A stretch of 64,000 bases of DNA, from NCBI GenBank assembly GCA_013297755.1, contig JAAFIH010000029.1, positions 1 through 64,000 on the forward strand, given 5' to 3'. This DNA comes from Cytophagales bacterium (GTDB taxonomy: Bacteria; Bacteroidota; Bacteroidia; Cytophagales; UBA9547). This document shows, piece by piece, positions 13,171-25,055 of the stretch. The notes beneath the pieces were generated by a model. The model was not told the DNA's origin, searched no databases, and was given only the letters and a program-made list of their open reading frames with translations. The translations under genes and the position numbers were made by a program. Numbering within the stretch: the stretch's first letter is position 1; every line of letters begins with the position of its first letter.

Positions 13171-14373
13171 ATGTCTATTCACAAAAATGTAGCACAGGCT
13201 GTAGTTGAGGCTCTAAGTCAGATTTTTATCAAAAAAGGCCATGCTGATATTGTGGTAGAGAAATTGTTAAAATCAAATCCAAAATGGGGTAGCAGAGACC
13301 GCAGATTTATTGCCGAAAATGTATATGATATTACTCGTTGGTGGCGATATTTGCATTTTATAGCCTCTAAAGACGAAAACAGAACAGATACTGTGGCTAT
13401 TTGGCTAGTTTTAGGTATTTGGCTTACGCTAAAAGACGAAATATTGCCTCAATGGGACGAGTTTGCAAAAATCAAAGACATAGATATTGGCACAAAAAAG
13501 GCTGATGCTGCTCTTGTACCTCAAATTTTGTATTCGTTCCCAGATTGGATGCACGAGCGTGGGTATGCAGAGTTGGGCCCTCAATGGACTAATCAAATGA
13601 AAGCCCTCAACGAACCAGCTCAGGTTGTATTAAGGAGCAATTTGCTAAAAAATAGTGCTGCTGATTTGAAATTAATTTTGGACAAAGCCAATATTGAAAC
13701 CCAAACTATTGATGGCTTTGCAGATGCTTTGGTACTGAAAAAACGTCAGAACTTGATGCAAAACGATGGATACAGAAATGGATTGTTTGAAATACAAGAT
13801 GCATCTTCACAACTGGTAGCTCCATTTCTAAAGCCAGAATCAGGTATGTTTGTAGTAGATGCTTGTGCTGGGGCTGGTGGCAAAACATTGCATTTGGCGG
13901 CCTTGATGAAAAATAAAGGTAAGATTATAGCATTAGATACCGAAAAATGGAAACTCGATGAGCTAAAAAAACGTGCCGCAAGAGCCAATGCTACTATCAT
14001 AGAAACGCATGAATTTGTGCACCCACAATTGATAAAACAATGGGCTGGCAAAGTAGATAGACTCTTACTAGATGTGCCATGTACTGGATTGGGTGTAATA
14101 CGCAGAAACTCTGACGCCAAATGGAAACTATCGCCCAAAACACTGGAGGAGTTGTTACAAAAACAGCAATTTATACTCCAAAACTATACATCTATCGTAA
14201 AAACGGGTGGCCTTTTGGTATATGCCACTTGTAGTATTTTGCCCAGCGAAAATCAAAACCAAATAGAAGAGTTTTTGGCAACCAATGATAATTTCTCGTT
14301 TATTGAAGAAAAAAAAATTATGCCTTCTGAAGGTTTTGATGGTTTTTATATGGCAGTCTTGGAGAGAAAATAA
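13171..14373 (+). CDS. rsmB: RsmB/NOP-family rRNA (cytosine-C5) methyltransferase
   Basis: A 400-residue SAM-dependent m5C RNA methyltransferase. A NusB-like/leader N-terminal part (1-150) precedes the Rossmann methyltransferase domain. Motif I is VDACAGAGGKT at 229-239, motif IV is DVPCTGLG with Cys304, and motif VI is ATCSILPSEN with Cys354. Both catalytic cysteines of the RsmB/F type are present. The target is presumably 16S rRNA C967, by family; other m5C sites are possible. It starts at ATG 13171. The first type IIG gene follows after 30 bp on the same strand with no terminator between, so read-through into the restriction array is likely. Confidence 0.88.
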   Translation: MSIHKNVAQAVVEALSQIFIKKGHADIVVEKLLKSNPKWGSRDRRFIAENVYDITRWWRYLHFIASKDENRTDTVAIWLVLGIWLTLKDEILPQWDEFAKIKDIDIGTKKADAALVPQILYSFPDWMHERGYAELGPQWTNQMKALNEPAQVVLRSNLLKNSAADLKLILDKANIETQTIDGFADALVLKKRQNLMQNDGYRNGLFEIQDASSQLVAPFLKPESGMFVVDACAGAGGKTLHLAALMKNKGKIIALDTEKWKLDELKKRAARANATIIETHEFVHPQLIKQWAGKVDRLLLDVPCTGLGVIRRNSDAKWKLSPKTLEELLQKQQFILQNYTSIVKTGGLLVYATCSILPSENQNQIEEFLATNDNFSFIEEKKIMPSEGFDGFYMAVLERK

Positions 14374-14403: not shown

Positions 14404-16854
14404 ATGAAATACGCCAACATCAGAGAAGAAGAGCTAAAAAATAAAATCGCACAGGAATACTTTTGGATGCTAGATTGCTCCAAAATAGTAGGAAATGTAG
14501 ATTTTTGTGTATCACTGCATAGTTCTGAAACAGAATTATCTGATATTTCTACGCTCCTGTGGGCTGAGGCCAAAAAAGGTTCAGCAGATATTCAAAAATC
14601 TATAAGCCAACTCATTCTTACTATCGGCAAAGCCCGTACTTTTGATAAAACGCTGCCTCCAGCTTATTTGGGTGCGTTTGATGCCGAAAAAATCGCTTTT
14701 GTGCCATACAGCGAAATTACAGATGTTTTTTATCAAAATGATTTTAATTGGAATGTAACCCCATCCAACCACGAAACACGAGAATTTAAACTTATTCTTA
14801 CCAAAGTAAAAGATACGCTCGATGCACAAGCCTTGATATTTTATTATGAAAAAGACCAAAAAGAGCTACAATATTTTATAAAACAAAACTTTGTAGCTGG
14901 CAAATATGGCATTACCAAAACTCGCATTGACAAAAATAATTTTATGGTCATTTACAACAAATGGCTTACAGCAGTAAAACCAAGCATTAGTGCGGATTGG
15001 GACGCTGCCAAAAAAATAGGAATTATTGACGGTGATTTTTATCTTGCTGATTTGCTTTCAAAAGAAAATAATACGCTCAAAGATAAACTTTTTGTACTCC
15101 TCAAAACTGATACCTATCATTTGGATAGGAAATTAGATGACGCAGGGTTTTTTAGTACAAAAACCGTTTCTTTCAAAAAAAATGACCAAACCGCTCACAC
15201 CCAATTTTGGAACAAATACGAAAGACCGCCCAAAGAAGAATATTGGGATTATATCGTAGGACGTAGGGATTTGCTTGTTCCGCAAGATGTAAGGGAGCGA
15301 AAAGGGAGTTTTTTTACGCCTCAAATCTGGGTAGAACTTTCCCAAAAGTACCTCGCAGACGTACTGGGCGAAGATTGGCAAGATGAATATTACATCTGGG
15401 ATTGTGCTTGTGGTACAGGTAATCTACTCGCAGGACTTACCAACAAATACCATATTTTTGCCTCTACTTTGGATAAGCAAGATATTGACGTGATACACGA
15501 CCGCATACAAAACGGTGCAAATCTTTTGGAAAAACACGTTTTTCAGTTTGATTTCTTAAATGATGATTTTGATAAACTTCCAAAAAATCTACAAGAAATT
15601 ATCAATAATGAAGAAAAAAGAAAAAAATTAGTCGTGTATATCAATCCGCCTTATGCGGAAGCAACAACTGCAAAAACTATAACAGGCACAGGCGAAAATA
15701 AAGCAGGTGTAGCCAAAGACAGCAAATTAAATGATTTTTATAATGCAAAAATTGGAAATGCCTCCAACGAAATGTTTGCCTTATTTATGGCAAGAGTTTA
15801 TGATAAAATTCCAGATTCTAAATTCGCATTATTTTCAAAATTAAAATTTGTACAGGGTACAAACTTTATTAAATTTAGAGATTTTTTTCGAGCAAAATTT
15901 TTAGGTGGTTTCATAGTTAGAGCTGATACATTTGATAATGTAAAAGGCAACTTTCCTATAGGATTTACGACTTGGGATTTAAGTGTTAAAGATAAAATAA
16001 ATAATACAGTTTGCAATATAATAGCCAATAATGGCAAAAAAGAAGGTAAAAAAACTTTTTATGGTGAGTTACCTGAAAGTATCAATAAATGGATAAAACT
16101 TTTTGACAATGGTAGCAATATACATTTTGGTTATATGGGAAATCCCGCACCTGATTTTCAACACAATAGTCAAATGTATTTAGCAAATCAAAAAGGTATT
16201 GAACATTTTAATTTTTGGTCTTTTACCAAAAATAATGTAATTATGGGGAGTATCTATTTTGCAGTTCGACAAGTAATAGATGCTAGCTGGTTAAATGATC
16301 GAGACCAATTTTTATTTCCAAACGATGGCTGGAAATCAGACAACGAATTTCAAAATAACTGTTTGGCTTATTTGCTTTTTCACGGACAAAATAGAATTAC
16401 CGCAAAAAATAGTACAAACCATTTTATCCCATTCACAGAGCAGGAACTCGAGGCAGGGGAGAAGTTTGAGAGTAGTTTTATGATTGATTTTATCAAAGGA
16501 AAATTAAAACCTGACCCTAAAACCAATCTTTTTGGAATAATTGAAACCTTACGAACCACACCTCTTATATTTTCTACAGAAGCCAAAGCAGTATTTGATG
16601 CAGGGCGAGAACTTTGGCGATATTACCACAAAACCATCAACAATTCAAGTAGTTTTTTGAGTACAAAACCCAACGCAAATGCGAGTTTGTATGATATACG
16701 AGAGTATTTTCAGGGCAGAAACACCAAAGGCACCATGAAACACAAAAGCGAAGACGAAAATTATACACTTTTAATTGCAGATTTGCGAGAAACTTTAAAA
16801 CTTTTAGCAAAAAAAATAGAACCAAAAGTATATGAATATGGATTTTTGAAATAG
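14404..16854 (+). CDS. Type IIG restriction-modification protein, array copy 1
   Basis: An 816-residue apparent single-chain restriction endonuclease and N6-adenine methyltransferase. The N-terminus (1-190) fits a PD-(D/E)XK nuclease: Asp33 in NVDFCVS, Glu55-x-Lys57 in WAEAKKG, then a QLILTIGKA helix. The methyltransferase part has FFTP at 303-306, motif I DCACGTGN at 333-340 and motif IV NPPY at 414-417, the N6-A class. Residues from about 420 to 700, between NPPY and WLNDRDQFLFPNDGW, differ strongly from the paralogues and are the presumed target-recognition region. The last 90 residues (NASLYDIREYFQGR onward) are conserved. Motif I differs from copies 2 and 3 (CACG against CAAG). It lies 30 bp after the rRNA methyltransferase gene and 11 bp before copy 2. 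Recognition sequence unknown. Confidence 0.85.
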   Translation: MKYANIREEELKNKIAQEYFWMLDCSKIVGNVDFCVSLHSSETELSDISTLLWAEAKKGSADIQKSISQLILTIGKARTFDKTLPPAYLGAFDAEKIAFVPYSEITDVFYQNDFNWNVTPSNHETREFKLILTKVKDTLDAQALIFYYEKDQKELQYFIKQNFVAGKYGITKTRIDKNNFMVIYNKWLTAVKPSISADWDAAKKIGIIDGDFYLADLLSKENNTLKDKLFVLLKTDTYHLDRKLDDAGFFSTKTVSFKKNDQTAHTQFWNKYERPPKEEYWDYIVGRRDLLVPQDVRERKGSFFTPQIWVELSQKYLADVLGEDWQDEYYIWDCACGTGNLLAGLTNKYHIFASTLDKQDIDVIHDRIQNGANLLEKHVFQFDFLNDDFDKLPKNLQEIINNEEKRKKLVVYINPPYAEATTAKTITGTGENKAGVAKDSKLNDFYNAKIGNASNEMFALFMARVYDKIPDSKFALFSKLKFVQGTNFIKFRDFFRAKFLGGFIVRADTFDNVKGNFPIGFTTWDLSVKDKINNTVCNIIANNGKKEGKKTFYGELPESINKWIKLFDNGSNIHFGYMGNPAPDFQHNSQMYLANQKGIEHFNFWSFTKNNVIMGSIYFAVRQVIDASWLNDRDQFLFPNDGWKSDNEFQNNCLAYLLFHGQNRITAKNSTNHFIPFTEQELEAGEKFESSFMIDFIKGKLKPDPKTNLFGIIETLRTTPLIFSTEAKAVFDAGRELWRYYHKTINNSSSFLSTKPNANASLYDIREYFQGRNTKGTMKHKSEDENYTLLIADLRETLKLLAKKIEPKVYEYGFLK

Positions 16855-16865
16855 AAATAATAATA

Positions 16866-19310
16866 ATGAAATACGCCAACATCAGAGAAGAAGAGCTAAA
16901 AAACAACATTGCCCAAGATTATTTTTGGATGTACGACTGTGCCAAAATCATTGGAAACATAGATTTTTGTGTGTCTATCAGACAAGAATCAGTGGAGTTT
17001 GCATCTCAGTCGCTCCTTTGGGCTGAGGCCAAAAAGGGCGTTTCAGATATATACTTGTCGCTAGTGCAGCTTATTTTAACGATTGGCAAAGCCCGCACTT
17101 TTGATAAACATTTGCCACCACCCTATTTGGCGGCCTTTGATGCCCAAAAAATAGCTTTTGTGCCATACAGTGAAGTGAGCGAAATTTTTTATATGAACGA
17201 TTTTAATTGGAACGTAACCCCCTCTAATTATGAATCCAAAGAATTTAAGCTTCTGCATCAAAAAGTAAAAAATACGATTACCGAAAAATCGCTATTGTAT
17301 GACTATCAAAAAAACGATCGAGAGCTACAAAATTTTATAAAATCAAACTTTGTAGTTGGCCATTTTGGGGTAACCAAAACCAGAATCGACAAAAATAATT
17401 TTATGATTATCTACAACAAGTGGCTACAAGCAGTAAAACCAAAAATTATCGTAAACTGGGAAATTGCCAAAAAAGTAGGCATCATAGATGGCGATTTTTA
17501 TTTGGCAGATTTATTAAGTCAAGACAATATTACATTAAAAGAAAAACTATATGTTTTATTAAAAAATGATAAATATGAATTAGATCGAAAATTTAATGAC
17601 ATGGGCTTATTTAATACAAGTTCGGCTACTTTTTCGGATAAACAAAAAGCCCACACCCAATTTTGGAGTATTTATGAGCGTCCACCTTTGGAGCAGTACT
17701 GGGATTATATCATCGAACGTAGAGATTTGCTGGTGCCACAAGACATACGTGAGCGAAAAGGCAGTTTTTTTACGCCTCAAATTTGGGTAGAACTTTCTCA
17801 AAAATACCTCGCTGATACTCTGGGCGAAGACTGGCAAGATGAATATTATATCTGGGATTGTGCCGCAGGCACAGGCAATTTGCTGCATGGGCTTACCAAT
17901 AAATACAACATTTGGGCCTCTACCCTCGATAAACAAGATGTAGATGTAATGCACGACCGCATACAAAATGGCACAAACTTACTCGAAGACCAAGTATTTC
18001 AGTTTGATTTTTTGAATGATAGTTTTGATAAATTGCCAAAAAAATTACGTGAAATACTAAATAATGAATCAAAACGAAAAAAATTGGTCATTTATATAAA
18101 CCCACCCTATGCAGAGGCGAGCAACAAAAAAACCCTAAAAAAAATAGAAGGCAACAAGGGTGTAGAACAAAGTATGGTAAATAAAAAATATAGTAAATAT
18201 CTTGGACAAGGAAATGCCGAGCTTTTTGCTCAATTTCTTACTAGAATTTATTTTGAAATCCCAGACTGTTTAATTGCAAATTTTTCAAAACTTAAAATTA
18301 TTTCAGGTCCTCATTTTATAGATTTCCGCAATTTTTTTAAAGCAACCTTTAAAAAAGGATTTATCATGCCTGCAAATTCATTTGACAATGTAAAAGGTAA
18401 ATTCCCAATTGGGTTTATGATTTGGAATACTTTTGAAAAAAAATCTTTAACTCATATAGAAACAGATGTTTACATTAATAGTAAAATATTATTTAGTAAA
18501 AAGAATTTTTATACGTATTACGACAATCAATATATTAATGATTGGATAAAACCATTTAGAGCTGATATTAAAAAGAATCAATTAATTGGAAAGTTTCCAT
18601 TTAAAGGCAATGATTTTCAAAACCAAAATATGATTCAAATTGTGCATCATAAAATGAATTATAATGTTGAAGCAGGTCAGTTTTTAATAAATCAAAAAAA
18701 TGTACTTACAGCATCTATTTATTTTGCAGTTCGCAAATGTATAGCAGCATCTTGGCTTAACGATAGAGATCAATTTTTATTTCCAAATGATGGATGGTCA
18801 AAAGATATAGAATTTCAAAATAATTGTTTTGTTTATTCCCTTTTCACAAACAATATTCAAGCAAAGTATGGCACTAATCACTGGATTCCGTATTCAGAAA
18901 TTGAAGTAAATGCAAGAGAAAAATTTGAAAGCGATTTTATGTCAAAATACATAGCTGGCAAAATAGATACCGAAATTACCAATGATTTATTTAGCAAAGT
19001 GGATAAAAAAGAACAAAAAGCTCTTAAATTCAGTCCTCATGCCCAATTAGTATTTGATGCTGGCAAAAAACTGTGGCAATATTATCATCAAGAAATCAAC
19101 AAAATACCTGTATCAGAACTCAAAAGTGAGCTTGTAAATGCCTCTTTGTATGATATACGTGAGTATTTTCAGGGACGTTCTGCATCAAGAATGAACAATT
19201 CCAGCCAAGACGAAACCTACACTCAGTTGATGGACAACCTAAGAGAGACTCTCAAAGACTTGGCTGCCCAAATAGAACCAAAAGTATATGAATATGGATT
19301 TTTGAAATAA
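16866..19310 (+). CDS. Type IIG restriction-modification protein, array copy 2
   Basis: An 814-residue paralogue with the same order of parts. The nuclease motif is Asp33 and Glu54-x-Lys56 in WAEAKKG. FFTP lies at 301-304, motif I DCAAGTGN at 331-338 and NPPY at 412-415. Its N-terminal 200 residues are clearly diverged from copies 1 and 3, which are almost identical there. The first 38 bases and the last 40 coding bases, however, match copy 1 exactly. The presumed target-recognition region (about 420-690) is unlike either neighbour apart from FSKLK and FDNVKGxFPIGF anchors. This suggests a separate specificity. It is translated in the same direction with an 11-bp gap to copy 1, so it is probably on one transcript with it. 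No frameshift or missing catalytic residue was seen. Confidence 0.85.
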   Translation: MKYANIREEELKNNIAQDYFWMYDCAKIIGNIDFCVSIRQESVEFASQSLLWAEAKKGVSDIYLSLVQLILTIGKARTFDKHLPPPYLAAFDAQKIAFVPYSEVSEIFYMNDFNWNVTPSNYESKEFKLLHQKVKNTITEKSLLYDYQKNDRELQNFIKSNFVVGHFGVTKTRIDKNNFMIIYNKWLQAVKPKIIVNWEIAKKVGIIDGDFYLADLLSQDNITLKEKLYVLLKNDKYELDRKFNDMGLFNTSSATFSDKQKAHTQFWSIYERPPLEQYWDYIIERRDLLVPQDIRERKGSFFTPQIWVELSQKYLADTLGEDWQDEYYIWDCAAGTGNLLHGLTNKYNIWASTLDKQDVDVMHDRIQNGTNLLEDQVFQFDFLNDSFDKLPKKLREILNNESKRKKLVIYINPPYAEASNKKTLKKIEGNKGVEQSMVNKKYSKYLGQGNAELFAQFLTRIYFEIPDCLIANFSKLKIISGPHFIDFRNFFKATFKKGFIMPANSFDNVKGKFPIGFMIWNTFEKKSLTHIETDVYINSKILFSKKNFYTYYDNQYINDWIKPFRADIKKNQLIGKFPFKGNDFQNQNMIQIVHHKMNYNVEAGQFLINQKNVLTASIYFAVRKCIAASWLNDRDQFLFPNDGWSKDIEFQNNCFVYSLFTNNIQAKYGTNHWIPYSEIEVNAREKFESDFMSKYIAGKIDTEITNDLFSKVDKKEQKALKFSPHAQLVFDAGKKLWQYYHQEINKIPVSELKSELVNASLYDIREYFQGRSASRMNNSSQDETYTQLMDNLRETLKDLAAQIEPKVYEYGFLK

Positions 19311-19353
19311 TTACTTTATGATATATCTTTCTAATTTTTATTTTATAAATCAG

Positions 19354-19378
19354 TATATTTGAAATGATTTTATCATTT
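19354..19378 (+). promoter_or_regulatory. Candidate promoter and operator before the nuclease gene
   Basis: TATATTTG at 19354-19361 matches the -7 consensus. It is followed at once by a perfect 7-bp palindrome with a 3-base centre (arms AAATGAT 19362-19368 and ATCATTT 19372-19378), where transcription would start. A palindrome there is well placed for a repressor, such as a controller protein of a restriction system. No regulator gene is visible nearby. This is the only sizeable gap in the array. Confidence 0.4.
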
Positions 19379-19391
19379 AATAGAAAAAATT

Positions 19392-19994
19392 ATGGCTTAT
19401 TCAAACTTTACATTAGCAAAACTAGAAAAAGATTACGGGTTGATGCAAAAAGATACTTTTTTGTTTAAAGATATAAATTTACCATTAATAGATGCAAGCC
19501 AAAGACTCAAAGACGATTTGCAAGATGCAAAAGAAGTTCCTATGATGTCCGAAAAGGCAAAATCGGAATACATTATTGCCCCAATTACTCGCGAGTTGAA
19601 ACGAAATAATGCTTTTATTACTATTTTTTCAGGCTATACTTTTAATATAGAAAGCGATAAAGAATTAAGTGGTTCGCCCGATTTTTTGATTTCTGCAAAA
19701 TCGGGAATTGTAGAACCCCAACGACCTGTATTTTGCTTGTTTGAGTCCAAAAATAAAGAAGCAACTGAAGGATTTGCCCAATGTGCAGCCGAAATGTACG
19801 CAGCCAGACTGTTTAACCTAGAAAATAATGAGCCTTACGAAACTATCTATGGTGCAGTTACCAATGCTTACGACTGGGTTTTTTTAAAACTTGAAGGAAA
19901 TACAGTTTTTATAGACAAAGAAAGGTATTTTTTGAATGAATTGCCAAAATTACTCGGCATTTTGCAATTTATTGTAAACCAATACAAAAACTAA
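19392..19994 (+). CDS. Stand-alone PD-(D/E)XK nuclease-like protein within the type IIG array
   Basis: A 200-residue soluble protein whose residue pattern fits the PD-(D/E)XK fold: Glu59 in EYIIAPI, Pro96-Asp97 in SGSPDFLIS, Glu118-x-Lys120 in LFESKNKE and Gln130 in FAQCAAEM. Proteins of this shape occur as hypotheticals in cyanobacteria and Bacteroidota (recollection). It has no methyltransferase or helicase part. It starts at ATG 19392, 81 bp after copy 2, with its own candidate promoter/operator, and is followed after 15 bp by copy 3. It is therefore likely made together with copy 3. It might be an accessory cleavage subunit, a methyl-directed nuclease, or an unrelated passenger. The active-site residues look intact. 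Confidence 0.7.
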   Translation: MAYSNFTLAKLEKDYGLMQKDTFLFKDINLPLIDASQRLKDDLQDAKEVPMMSEKAKSEYIIAPITRELKRNNAFITIFSGYTFNIESDKELSGSPDFLISAKSGIVEPQRPVFCLFESKNKEATEGFAQCAAEMYAARLFNLENNEPYETIYGAVTNAYDWVFLKLEGNTVFIDKERYFLNELPKLLGILQFIVNQYKN

Positions 19995-20009
19995 AAATCT
20001 TATTTCATA

Positions 20010-22439
20010 ATGAAATACGCCAACATCAGAGAAGAGGAGCTAAAAAATAAAATCGCACAGGAATATTTTTGGATGCTTGATTGCTCCAAAATAGTAGGAA
20101 ATGTAGATTTTTGTGTATCACTGCATAGTTCTGAAACAGAATTATCTGATATTTCTACGCTCTTGTGGGCAGAAGCCAAAAAAGGAGCAGCAGATATTCA
20201 AAAATCTATAAGCCAACTCATTCTTACTATCGGCAAAGCCCGTACTTTTGATAAAACGCTGCCTCCAGCCTATTTGGGTGCGTTTGATGCCGAAAAAATC
20301 GCTTTTGTGCCTTACAGCGAAATTACAGATGTGTTTTATCAAAATGATTTTAATTGGAACGTAACCCCCTCCAACCACGAAACACGAGAATTTAAACTTA
20401 TTCTTACCAAAGTAAAAGATACGCTCGATGCACAAGCCTTGATATTTTATTATGAAAAAGACCAAAAAGAGCTACAAAATTTCATAAAACAAAACTTTGT
20501 AGCTGGCAAATATGGCATTACCAAAACACGCATTGATAAAAATAATTTTATGGTCATTTACAACAAATGGCTTACAGCAGTAAAACCTACCATAAATGTA
20601 AATTGGGACTTTGCCAAAAAAGTAGGCATTATAGATGGTGATTTTTATTTAGCAGATTTGCTTTCTCACGAAAACGAAACCCTCAAAGACAAACTCTATG
20701 TTTTGCTCAAAAAAGACCAATACCAATTAGACCGAAAACTGAATGAATCTGGACTTTTTAGTAGCCAATCCACAGGTTTTAATGACAAACAAAAAGCCCA
20801 CATTCAATTTTGGAATAAATACGAAAGACCTCCCAAAGAAGAATACTGGGATTATATCGTAGGACGCAGAGATTTGCTCGTACCCCAAGATGTGCGTGAG
20901 CGAAAAGGCAGTTTTTTTACACCTCAAATTTGGGTAGAATTGTCTCAAAAGTACCTTGCAGATACCCTTGGCGAAGATTGGCAAGACGAATATTACATTT
21001 GGGATTGTGCCGCAGGCACTGGCAATTTATTGCATGGGTTGACTAATAAAAACAATATTTTTGCCTCTACATTAGACAAACAAGATGTAGATGTGATGCA
21101 CGATCGTATCAAAAATGGAGCTAATCTCTGGGAAAACCAAGTTTTTCAGTTCGATTTTTTAAACGATAATTTTGATAAACTGCCAAAAAATCTAAAAAAA
21201 ATTATCGATGACCCCGAAAAAAGAAAAAAATTAGTGATTTATATCAATCCGCCTTATGCGGAGGTTTCTAGTTTAGGAATCAAAAGTAAAGCTGGAGTAA
21301 ACCAATCAAAGTGTCATGAAAAATACATAAATAAAATTGGAACTGCAGGAAGAGAAATATACACATTATTTTTAGCAAGAATTTATGACGAATTATTGGG
21401 ATGTAAAATTGCAGAGTTTTCAAAACTAAAAATCTTACAAGGTTCGGCATTTATTTTGTTTCGCAATTATTTTAAATGCGAATTACTTAAATCGTTTGTA
21501 ATACCAGCTTGGACTTTTGATAATGTAAAAGGTAATTTTCCAATTGGGTTCAAAATTTGGAATACAAATAGTGAAAGTACTTTTGTTTCAACAATTTCTG
21601 ATGTCTATGATCACAACAAAAAACTAATTGGAGAAAAAACATTTTATGTTACAAATAAAAAAGAGTACATTAATAAATGGATTTCTCAATTTAAAGTTAA
21701 AGAAAATGCAATTGGCTTTTTAGCTGGTACAAATGGCAATGATTTTCAGCAAAATGGAATTGTTTATATTTTAAATGAAAAAAAACAAATGGCAAATCCA
21801 AGAGGAATGTGGATTAGCTTTGAAAACATAATTCAAATTTCAATCTATTTTTCTATTCGCAAAGCAATTTCTGCCACTTGGCTCAATGACAGAGACCAAT
21901 TTTTATTTCCAAATGATGGATGGAAAACTGATGTTGTATTTCAAAATGATTGTTTGGCTTTTACCCTTTTTACAAATAATATTCAATGTAAATATGGTAC
22001 AAACCATTTTATCCCATTTACAGAGCAAGAGGTAGGGGCTCAAGAGCGTTTCGAGAGTAATTTTATGGCCAATTTTATCAAAGGAAAATTAAAAAAAGAC
22101 AATACAAATGATATTTTTGGGAATACAGACACATCATGCACCACACCTCTTACATTTTCTACAGAAGCCAAAGCAGTATTTGATGCAGGCCGAGAACTTT
22201 GGCGATATTACCACCAATGCCTCAACAATACAAATACTTTTTTGAATACCAAACCCAACGCAAATGCGAGTTTGTATGACATACGAGAGTATTTTCAGGG
22301 CAGAAACACCAAAGGCACCATGAAACACAAAAGCGAAGACGAAAATTATACACTATTAATTGCAGATTTGCGAGAAACTTTAAAACTTTTAGCAAAAAAA
22401 ATAGAACCAAAAGTATATGAATATGGATTTTTGAAATAG
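20010..22439 (+). CDS. Type IIG restriction-modification protein, array copy 3
   Basis: An 809-residue paralogue. Residues 1-190 are nearly identical to copy 1 (two substitutions noted, Ala60 and Asn157). The segment at about 193-350 reads more like copy 2, including KKVGIIDGD and DCAAGTGNLLHGL. The C-terminal 65 residues are again identical to copy 1, so the gene is a mosaic of its neighbours. The nuclease motif is Asp33 and Glu55-x-Lys57. FFTP lies at 302-305, motif I at 332-339 and NPPY at 413-416. The region between about 420 and 700 is its own, giving a presumed third specificity. It follows the PD-(D/E)XK gene by 15 bp and ends the array. No attachment site or transposase borders it. 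Confidence 0.85.
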   Translation: MKYANIREEELKNKIAQEYFWMLDCSKIVGNVDFCVSLHSSETELSDISTLLWAEAKKGAADIQKSISQLILTIGKARTFDKTLPPAYLGAFDAEKIAFVPYSEITDVFYQNDFNWNVTPSNHETREFKLILTKVKDTLDAQALIFYYEKDQKELQNFIKQNFVAGKYGITKTRIDKNNFMVIYNKWLTAVKPTINVNWDFAKKVGIIDGDFYLADLLSHENETLKDKLYVLLKKDQYQLDRKLNESGLFSSQSTGFNDKQKAHIQFWNKYERPPKEEYWDYIVGRRDLLVPQDVRERKGSFFTPQIWVELSQKYLADTLGEDWQDEYYIWDCAAGTGNLLHGLTNKNNIFASTLDKQDVDVMHDRIKNGANLWENQVFQFDFLNDNFDKLPKNLKKIIDDPEKRKKLVIYINPPYAEVSSLGIKSKAGVNQSKCHEKYINKIGTAGREIYTLFLARIYDELLGCKIAEFSKLKILQGSAFILFRNYFKCELLKSFVIPAWTFDNVKGNFPIGFKIWNTNSESTFVSTISDVYDHNKKLIGEKTFYVTNKKEYINKWISQFKVKENAIGFLAGTNGNDFQQNGIVYILNEKKQMANPRGMWISFENIIQISIYFSIRKAISATWLNDRDQFLFPNDGWKTDVVFQNDCLAFTLFTNNIQCKYGTNHFIPFTEQEVGAQERFESNFMANFIKGKLKKDNTNDIFGNTDTSCTTPLTFSTEAKAVFDAGRELWRYYHQCLNNTNTFLNTKPNANASLYDIREYFQGRNTKGTMKHKSEDENYTLLIADLRETLKLLAKKIEPKVYEYGFLK

Positions 22440-22468: not shown

Positions 22469-22498
22469 TTTGAAAAACAAATTCATTCAATATATTTG
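22469..22498 (+). promoter_or_regulatory. Promoter of the GH3 gene
   Basis: TTTG at 22469-22472, an 18-base spacer and TATATTTG at 22491-22498 give both halves of the Bacteroidota sigma-ABfr-type promoter. Transcription should start near 22505. The upstream TTG at 22470 lies inside the promoter and is therefore excluded as a start codon; ATG 22536 is preferred. Confidence 0.65.
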
Positions 22499-22535
22499 CA
22501 ATCAGTATTTCAATTATAACTTAAAAAAACATAAA

Positions 22536-25055
22536 ATGAAAAATATTTTTTTATCCATTACTTTAGTCAGTTTTGGTATTGTAGCCCAACCCTACAAAAA
22601 TGTTACATTACCCTTAGAAAAACGCATTGACGACTTAATGTCTAAGATGACAATAGAAGAAAAAATAGCCCAATTATATGGCGATGGTTTACGAACCAAA
22701 TCCAACGAAAGATTAGGAATTCCTGGCTTTGAAATGTCAGATGGCCCCATAGGTGTACGAACAGGCAAAGCCACCTCTTTTGCTTGTGGCGAGGCCATTG
22801 CTAGTTCTTGGGACACCCTTTTGATTGCCAAAGTTGCTCGTGCCATAGCCATAGAAGCCAAAGCTAAAGGTATAAATATCATGCTTGGGCCTACTGTAAA
22901 CAACCACAGGCTACCAAGTGGTGGACGCAATTTTGAAAGCTACTCCGAAGATCCTTACTTGGCTAGTCGCATGGCAGTAAACTATATCAAAGCCATGCAA
23001 AAAGAAAAAGTGGCCGTTTCGCTCAAGCATTTTTGTTGCAACGACCAAGAGTGGGAACGTATGCGTGTAGACGCTCAAATTGACGAGCAAACCATGCACG
23101 AAATACATTTACCCATGTTCAAAGCAGGTGTAACAGAAGCCAATGCCCTCACTGTGATGAGTGCATACAATAAAATAAACGGCACTTGGGCTAGCGAAAA
23201 CAAATACTTACTGAATGATGTACTCAAAAAAATGTATAAATTCAAAGGATTTGTCATCTCAGATTGGGAAGCTACTCATAGCACTTTAGCATCTGCCAAA
23301 GCAGGTTTAGATTTAGAAATGCCTAATCCAGTCTTTTTTGGCGATTCTTTGCTCAATGCAGTAAGAAAAAACAAAGTTTCTATCTCTGAAATTGATGATA
23401 AAGTACGCAGAGTTTTGAGAGTAAAATTTACTCTGGGCTTGTTTGATACCAAAAATACACCAAACGAAAACCTTGTAAATACGCCAGAATTCAAAAAACT
23501 AGCCTTAGAGTCCGCTCAAAGTGGAATGGTTTTATTAAAAAATAATAAAAATATATTACCACTAGATAAATCCAAAATTAAATCCATAGCCATCATAGGG
23601 CCAAATGCAAATATAGCTCGAACTGGTGCTGGCGGTAGCTCTTTGATAGCACCATATTATAGTGTAACGCCCAAAGAGGCCATAGAACAAAAAGTGGGTA
23701 ATGCTATAAAATTAAATTTTGCTCAAGGCGATGTCATAGATATCAAAGGTCTTACTACAATAGATGCTAAATATTTGATTGCCGAAAATGGGGAAGAAGG
23801 CCTCACTGCCAAATACTGGGACAAAGCAACCCTCCAAGATTGTATTGATGCCAACCTAACTGCACCACCCACAGTGATTCGTGTAGACAAAAACATGAGC
23901 CTTAGCTGGCCCGACCCACAGTCGCCTGATAGCAAAATAGATAAAGATTATTGGATAACTCAATGGACTGGCAAACTAAAACCACCCATTTCTCGAAAAT
24001 ATAAAATTTATACACGTACAGACGATGGTGCTAGGGTTTGGTTTGAAGACAAGCTAGTGATAGACAATTGGTATGTGCATGGCGCCCAAACGGATAGTTT
24101 TGTAGTAGACATGGAAGGATTCAATACATATAAAATTCGTATCGAATACTTTGAAGGAAACATGGGAGCCGATTTTCAATTTGCTTGGGATTTGCCCAAA
24201 GATGGTGCCACAGCAAGCAATGGCTCACTTATAGCTGAGGCCGTAAATGCTGCCAAAGCATCAGATGTGGCAGTAATATTTGCAGGAATGTCGAGCCAAT
24301 ACGAATCCGAGGGATTTGATACCAAGACTGGTCTTAAACTTCCTTCTTTTCAAGATTCATTAATTTCGGCAGTGGCTACAGCCAATCCCAAAACCATTGT
24401 TTGTTTGACAAATGGAAACGTCATAGAAATGCCTTGGCTCTATAAAGTACCAGCTGTGGTCGAGGGTTGGTATTCTGGTCAAGAAGTTGGCAACGCATTT
24501 GCAAATATTTTATTTGGAGATTACAATCCTTCGGGCAAATTAACACGTACTTTTGTATCAAAAAAATCAGATTCGCCTGCCTATACAGGATACATGGCCG
24601 ATGACATATCTGCAAAATATAGCGAAGGTATATTTGTAGGGTATCGATTTTTTGAAAAAATGGAAATCCCTACGCTTTTTCCATTTGGTCATGGTTTATC
24701 ATATAGTAGTTTTGAATATAAAAACCTCATAATCAGTGAATTAGGCAATAAAATCAAAGTAACACTTTCGGTAAAAAACACTTCAACAATAGCAGGCGAT
24801 GAAGTGGTGCAGGTCTATATAAAACCCAAAATTGAATTAGAAACAAGACCAGTCAAAGAACTAAAAGGATTTAGTAAAGTAAGTTTATTGCCTGGTCAAC
24901 AAAAAAACATAACTATTTATTTAGACAAAAACAATGCTTTTTCAATTTACGATACCAAAGTTCATGCTTTTGTATTACAAAAAGGAAATTATCAAATATG
25001 TGTCGGCAAATCTAGTGCCGATATCGTATTAAGTAGCGATTATAAAGTAAAATAA
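22536..25055 (+). CDS. bglX: GH3 beta-glucosidase with PA14 insert, exported
   Basis: An 839-residue glycoside hydrolase family 3 enzyme, probably periplasmic. The signal peptide MKNIFLSITL... ends near AQ18. The (beta/alpha)8 domain carries MSDGPIGVR at 68-76, SGGRNFESYSEDP at 128-140, the KHFCCND substrate loop at 164-170, and nucleophile Asp243 in GFVISDWEATH. The second alpha/beta domain is interrupted by a PA14 carbohydrate-binding-like insert (about 420-545, with AKYWDKATL and YTRTDDGARVWFEDKLVIDN). The C-terminus is fibronectin-III-like (GDEVVQVYIKP, FSKVSLLPGQ). The layout matches beta-glucosidases of the BglX/KmBgl type with a PA14 insert. The aglycone or linkage preference is not readable. 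The start was chosen as ATG 22536 because of the promoter position and the signal peptide. Confidence 0.9.
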   Translation: MKNIFLSITLVSFGIVAQPYKNVTLPLEKRIDDLMSKMTIEEKIAQLYGDGLRTKSNERLGIPGFEMSDGPIGVRTGKATSFACGEAIASSWDTLLIAKVARAIAIEAKAKGINIMLGPTVNNHRLPSGGRNFESYSEDPYLASRMAVNYIKAMQKEKVAVSLKHFCCNDQEWERMRVDAQIDEQTMHEIHLPMFKAGVTEANALTVMSAYNKINGTWASENKYLLNDVLKKMYKFKGFVISDWEATHSTLASAKAGLDLEMPNPVFFGDSLLNAVRKNKVSISEIDDKVRRVLRVKFTLGLFDTKNTPNENLVNTPEFKKLALESAQSGMVLLKNNKNILPLDKSKIKSIAIIGPNANIARTGAGGSSLIAPYYSVTPKEAIEQKVGNAIKLNFAQGDVIDIKGLTTIDAKYLIAENGEEGLTAKYWDKATLQDCIDANLTAPPTVIRVDKNMSLSWPDPQSPDSKIDKDYWITQWTGKLKPPISRKYKIYTRTDDGARVWFEDKLVIDNWYVHGAQTDSFVVDMEGFNTYKIRIEYFEGNMGADFQFAWDLPKDGATASNGSLIAEAVNAAKASDVAVIFAGMSSQYESEGFDTKTGLKLPSFQDSLISAVATANPKTIVCLTNGNVIEMPWLYKVPAVVEGWYSGQEVGNAFANILFGDYNPSGKLTRTFVSKKSDSPAYTGYMADDISAKYSEGIFVGYRFFEKMEIPTLFPFGHGLSYSSFEYKNLIISELGNKIKVTLSVKNTSTIAGDEVVQVYIKPKIELETRPVKELKGFSKVSLLPGQQKNITIYLDKNNAFSIYDTKVHAFVLQKGNYQICVGKSSADIVLSSDYKVK

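Follow-up and report, generated by a model that had tools for sequence, protein, structure and literature searches.

Three tandem, mosaic genes for predicted single-chain, Type IIG/IIL-like restriction-modification enzymes with divergent recognition regions in a Cytophagales bacterium

The window, a stretch of 64,000 nucleotides of contig JAAFIH010000029.1 from a Cytophagales bacterium (assembly GCA_013297755.1), contains three intact genes which lie head to tail on one strand and whose products share pairwise identities of 61-75% (Table 1). A small nuclease-like gene is located between copies 2 and 3, and the gaps between the successive open reading frames of the array measure 11, 81 and 15 bp. 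An earlier sequence-only reading of this DNA had described three adjacent Type IIG genes with an embedded stand-alone nuclease, and its coordinates, common direction and lengths (816, 814 and 809 residues, plus 200) agree exactly with the open reading frames. The array is flanked by genes for an rRNA methyltransferase and a glycosidase, and further neighbours encode an HflX-like GTPase, a NuoL-like protein and adenylosuccinate lyase; these are housekeeping surroundings rather than a defence island. The relatives of rsmB and bglX in two genomes of the same genus, G001 and G002, are located on separate contigs without the array beside them, and both genomes carry single or dispersed family copies at other sites. 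Since rsmB and bglX are apart and array-free in these genomes, the insertion of the array looks lineage-specific, and conserved synteny as a mark of an ancient island was rejected. The host genome also encodes two more distant relatives of the array enzymes (C37 and C29; 30-34% identity), of which the one on C29 has a stop codon.

Table 1. Positions of the array, its predicted domains, its flanking genes and the half-length genes of related loci
Feature	Position	Strand	Basis or remark
RsmB/F-type rRNA methyltransferase	13171-14373		upstream of the array
Copy 1, predicted single-chain R-M enzyme, 816 aa	14404-16854	+	ORF
Copy 1, PD-(D/E)XK-like nuclease domain, N-terminal, about residues 1-160	14404-14880	+	E8, D33, E55, K57, Q69; order of elements in the AlphaFold2 model
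Copy 1, gamma-class N6-adenine methyltransferase core, residues 286-419	15259-15660	+	FFTP, DCACGTG, NPPY; fold
Copy 1, variable (putative recognition) region, codons 421-620	15664-16263	+	least conserved part of the alignment
Copy 2, predicted single-chain R-M enzyme, 814 aa	16866-19310	+	ORF; divergent framework
Solo PD-(D/E)XK-like nuclease, 200 aa, probable passenger	19392-19994	+	ORF, PADLOC PD_DExK, conserved residues
Copy 3, predicted single-chain R-M enzyme, 809 aa	20010-22439	+	ORF
Terminal coding repeat, last 11 codons	16819-16851, 19275-19307, 22404-22436	+	DNA identical in all three copies
Family 3 glycosidase	22470-25055		downstream of the array
Half-length MTase-TRD copy after a full-length RM gene	L135:4313-5860, L136:5050-6594, L137:7132-8751		
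Half-length MTase-TRD copy after a full-length RM gene	L138:6581-8164, L143:7190-8752		

None of the three copies matched a Pfam, NCBIfam, PADLOC or PHROGs family above chance level, and the Pfam and NCBIfam scans gave no helicase family match. Sequence and profile searches of PDB chains returned chance matches only, e.g., Rab GTPases; MmeI and DrdV were absent among the matches listed, the likeness to such enzymes being one of fold only. The window genes are without a match to the Pfam family Eco57I (PF07669), although 19 other places in the same genome (G000, 70 contigs), all outside the window, do match; the host has many Type IIG-like genes. A scan of contigs revealed 209 stretches encoding relatives of the array enzymes, of which 80 were kept for comparison. 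The relatives belong mostly to Bacteroidota, and a few derive from records titled Comamonadaceae, Methylomonas, Thiomargarita, Helicobacteraceae, Arcobacteraceae, Spirochaetota and others; no relatives were found in phage records. Matches to the array enzymes were obtained in 18 of 97 further genomes sampled from the genus, family or order of the host and, at E ≤ 1e-60, in 3 of 247 other genomes of a phylum-wide draw, which indicates a patchy distribution. Because Pfam, NCBIfam and PADLOC do not detect the family, it is undercounted in defence inventories. An unannotated, broken relative with 46% identity is present in three reading-frame pieces on the Helicobacter pylori plasmid pUM157 (L134:3950-6903).

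Copies 1-3 have in common the residues E8 and D33, the motif W53-A-E55-x-K57, DCxxGTG and NPPY. The residues E8, D33, E55, K57, D333, G337, G339 and N414-P-P-Y417 are invariant in 108 full-length relatives and Q69 is kept in 107 of them; chance would not give such conservation. The motifs to which the sequence-only reading had pointed (D33...ExK, DCxxGTG and NPPY) thus occur in all three copies, and the variable region that it had proposed coincides with the lowest conservation of the alignment, at codons 421-620 or thereabouts. Over these codons, copy 1 has a nucleotide identity of 47-66% with its sister copies. The region was modelled as alpha/beta downstream of NPPY by AlphaFold2 and would be the part of the enzyme that reads DNA.

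The AlphaFold2 model of copy 1, which was built from an alignment of 78 sequences and has a pLDDT of 83, predicts the order nuclease, helical connector (about 130 residues), gamma-class adenine methyltransferase (MTase), recognition region and C-terminal helices. In a Foldseek search against the PDB, DrdV was the first match (E 5.3e-10, probability 1.00), followed by the Type ISP enzyme LlaBIII (E 9.6e-9), CamA, M.BseCI and LlaGI. The matches to DrdV and LlaBIII span 640-730 columns; global TM-scores are low (0.2-0.26), which is expected of flexible domains, so that the fold match supports common parts and their order and not one rigid arrangement. When the N-terminal 200 residues were modelled alone, the elements followed the order H-E-E-H-E-E, with D33 and E55-x-K57 in or beside adjacent strands. 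The best PDB match of this domain is the Type IIG enzyme BpuSI at a non-significant E of 0.066, and many other PD-(D/E)XK proteins follow below it, none significant by itself. Two hallmarks of Type IIG enzymes, which also cleave at a fixed distance from their site and are stimulated by SAM, are found in the array proteins: an N-terminal nuclease and a gamma-class MTase in one polypeptide, as seen in the motifs and the whole-chain fold and as suggested by the N-terminal fold alone, and a putative common recognition domain behind the MTase core, represented by the variable codons after NPPY. The proposal of single-chain, Type IIG-like restriction-modification (R-M) enzymes is well supported by the fold match to DrdV and LlaBIII and by the invariant catalytic residues.

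The predicted architecture is that of MmeI, in which a nuclease is followed by a helical spacer, the MTase, the target recognition region (TRD) and C-terminal helices (PMC4833311). MmeI and DrdV (Type IIL, lone-strand Type IIG) are likewise single chains, usually without a partner MTase gene; however, the array enzymes are shorter (about 815 amino acids; MmeI has 919 and DrdV chains have about 1010), and the tandem mosaic arrangement is a feature of their own. The Type ISP enzymes LlaBIII and LlaGI, to which the fold match is strong, also combine nuclease, gamma-class MTase and TRD in one chain, but they have a helicase-translocase between nuclease and MTase, which is absent from the array enzymes (816 amino acids in copy 1). 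BpuSI, the top, non-significant fold match of the N-terminus, has, unlike the array enzymes, a cleavage domain of the FokI type and two additional MTases (PMC3874165). The array is best read as a known kind of enzyme, Type IIG/IIL-like, in a family and an arrangement that are new.

Type IIL enzymes of the MmeI family methylate a single strand and need no partner MTase. The window array, like most other loci of the family, has no partner MTase gene, half-length or otherwise. In five related loci, however, a full-length gene is followed, with a spacing from overlapping to about 5 bp, by a half-length gene (Table 1). The products of 514-539 amino acids begin near residue 295 and consist of MTase and TRD only, and an alignment revealed that the MTase motifs are kept in all five. 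In four of them, the MTase core is 92-98% identical to that of the full-length neighbour and the TRD is not, its best match being found elsewhere; the L137 half-length gene has a TRD that is 93% identical to its neighbour's. With such an additional TRD, an asymmetric site might be modified on its other strand too, or the half-length gene might contribute a modification of its own. The arrangement resembles that of Eco57I, which is accompanied by a separate MTase (PMC3874165); however, the partner gene in the relatives duplicates half of the enzyme itself and mostly carries a different TRD (four of five pairs). Genes that match the family in part also occur: in L140:5385-7811 (808 amino acids) and L141:4165-6708 (847 amino acids), the first 340 or so residues correspond to the nuclease, connector and MTase start of the family, the remainder has no family or Pfam match, and each gene is followed by an MTase-TRD gene of the family.

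Type IIG enzymes are known, and so are Type IIG enzymes with lone-strand methylation. Such enzymes, and the occurrence of nuclease-less half-length copies in relatives, would fit the idea that the array enzymes are mainly epigenetic MTases, comparable to a phasevarion-like regulator, with weak or secondary restriction. However, the nuclease residues E8, D33, E55 and K57 are unchanged in all 108 full-length relatives, implying that cleavage is under selection, and a mainly epigenetic role is therefore considered unlikely. Restriction together with modification is the preferred reading.

The array is mosaic. In windowed comparisons of DNA, copies 1 and 3 are 95-98% identical over codons 1-170 and 89-99% identical from codon 715 onwards, with values of 66-89% in the connector and MTase core and of 49-60% in codons 443-612, i.e., in the recognition region. 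For most of its length, copy 2 stands further off than copies 1 and 3 do from each other; nevertheless, DNA identity across the copies is 95-97% in the first 13 codons, and all end in the repeat listed in Table 1. At the amino acid level, copy 1 is 94% identical to L054, from a Cytophagales metagenome-assembled genome (MAG), in its MTase core, 84% in its TRD and 86% in the next block, and it matches copy 3 at its two ends with 99 and 92% identity. As judged from these sequences, copy 1 is a chimera with ends like copy 3 and an MTase-TRD segment like the foreign Cytophagales allele L054, and copy 3 combines ends like copy 1 with an MTase core like L056 (96% identity) and a recognition region nearest to L062. 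The recognition region of copy 2 is nearest to alleles of G092, G001 and L059. In a maximum-likelihood tree of residues 1-175, copies 1 and 3 are joined with a support of 99/99, whereas residues 286-718 join copy 1 and L054 (100/100) and reject copies 1 and 3 as a pair (p-AU 2.3e-54); the reverse exclusion, of copy 1 with L054 on the N-terminus, is marginal (p 0.048). Furthermore, the clustering of mismatches was never reached by 200 site permutations in any within-locus pair tested. Divergence has a shared start at codons 418-424; this alone is not proof of a hot spot, since conservation drops there in unrelated pairs too. The suggestion that the genes form a recombining family has gained good support from the mosaic copies and their conflicting trees.

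Two or three tandem copies were also found in at least 7 of the 80 other loci (L056, L076, L080, L095, L110, L111 and L122), a minimum count, since many of the contigs stop close to the gene. The adjacent paralogues of the window, which the sequence-only reading had regarded as unusual, are thus real but no isolated curiosity. The tandem arrays L056, L095 and L122 repeat the mosaic pattern of the window. The two copies of L056 are 97-100% identical in DNA over codons 1-408, fall to 40-65% over the first 170 TRD codons and return to 94-100% from codon 681 onwards, and copies 1 and 3 of L122 are similar; most comparison loci are MAGs, in which misassembly between near-identical copies is possible (more than 1 kb at 100% in L056). 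L080 is the converse, with a TRD common to the copies (90-98%) and different connectors (60-69%). In 6 of 13 within-locus pairs, the framework-minus-TRD gap in identity lies above the 99th percentile (41 points) of 5765 other pairs; copies 1 and 3 of the window, with a gap of 53 points, are one of the six. So large a gap within one pair argues that the divergence of the TRD can hardly have built up since duplication and that the TRD was replaced instead. Had the genes simply duplicated in tandem and then drifted apart where they stand, with positive selection speeding up change in the recognition region and without any swapping of cassettes, the least conservation would also be expected in this region, as is seen in all pairs, unrelated ones included (TRD 42%, N-terminus 63%). 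However, the 84-94% identity of the copy 1 MTase-TRD segment to L054 next to ends of 92-99% identity to copy 3, the strongly supported tree conflict and the permutation tests have already largely refuted such a course, which is very improbable. Cassette exchange remains the preferred explanation.

Recombination in conserved flanks is likewise the means by which recognition domains are exchanged in the S subunits of Type I and Type IIG systems of Helicobacter pylori, known as TRD shuffling or domain movement (PMC3077401). The TRDs of H. pylori move in separate S subunits, whereas the cassette of the array lies inside the nuclease-MTase chain and donors and recipients stand in tandem. Multiple Type IIG copies in one genome are known, up to 20 in Borrelia (PMC3874165). 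The open-access literature searched, outside which many journals lie, contained no description of single-chain R-M genes that stand in tandem and have swapped TRD cassettes.

The separate 200-residue PD-(D/E)XK protein between copies 2 and 3 is borne out by its open reading frame and by a match to PADLOC PD_DExK (2.8e-43), a label for genes from CRISPR neighbourhoods and not a test of function. In an alignment of ten relatives, D97 and E118-x-K120 are conserved and Q130 is nearly invariant. A common origin with the N-terminus of the R-M enzymes was not supported: hhalign gave a probability of 3.7%, and the alignment, although it brings the D and ExK motifs into register, does not convince. The small nuclease family is strongly amplified in some genomes of the host's order, with 32 places in G085 and 21 in G092, where its members at times form small tandem clusters, as at G085 C56:153177-155079. 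Among the loci examined, no close relative adjoins a family R-M gene, and the nearest cases are 3-7 kb off. A relative in a Methylomonas MAG (L065:902-1513) lies 6.5 kb from such a gene, the closest pairing besides one of a distant type in G092 C96 (L150:20-667). The role of the nuclease as part of the system could not be upheld; it is probably a passenger gene and not a conserved partner. That the three R-M proteins and the nuclease form one multi-subunit system, with the nuclease as a required partner or alternative effector, would fit the common strand, the spacing of 15-81 bp and the presence of both families in 12 of 98 sampled genomes compared with about 4 expected (from 19 and 20; lineage and genome type uncontrolled), but it is a very improbable reading, since no close small-nuclease relative adjoins any other family locus examined, amplified genomes such as G085 carry the nuclease elsewhere and single R-M genes stand alone in most loci.

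The three genes are regarded, with a probability of roughly 80%, as encoding independent Type IIG/IIL-like single-chain R-M enzymes that form a multi-specificity array diversified by recognition-cassette exchange. Each enzyme would scan DNA with its own TRD and methylate the adenine of its site as a self mark, and the N-terminal nuclease would cut unmodified DNA, probably once two or more molecules associate, as has been discussed for MmeI-like enzymes (PMC3874165). The PD-(D/E)XK nuclease and the gamma-class N6-adenine MTase of an enzyme would use a single recognition region, so that changing this region would alter cutting and self-protection together; in MmeI-like enzymes, one TRD serves both activities and a replaced cassette alters both at once (PMC4833311). 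The divergent recognition regions strongly suggest more than one specificity, although TRDs may differ without changing the base sequence read. Three enzymes would probably mean three DNA specificities and thus parallel barriers against phages and plasmids.

The array presumably grew by duplication, after which homologous recombination, with alleles that were either incoming or paralogous, would have replaced the segment that runs from the MTase core, or from motif IV (NPPY), up to the conserved C-terminal block. The near-identical gene ends would keep the copies recombinogenic, both with each other and with incoming alleles, and recombination may be the agent that keeps the array variable; duplication with a one-off replacement fits equally well as ongoing conversion. 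A wider proposal can be offered tentatively, as possible more than probable: that such arrays are self-diversifying banks of specificities across Bacteroidota and beyond, in which tandem genes are active simultaneously, cassettes are routinely exchanged via the gene ends and motif IV, and half-length copies serve as modification partners or donors.

A single chain with one recognition segment for cutting and self-marking would allow a change of specificity in one step without death of the host. A set of tandem copies in which different recognition segments are fitted into one framework amounts to a natural recognition-domain swapping experiment, which marks usable swap boundaries after NPPY and before the conserved block at residues 621-650, and the family supplies many natural recognition modules for engineering. 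The array shows how a genome may hold several specificities and renew them.
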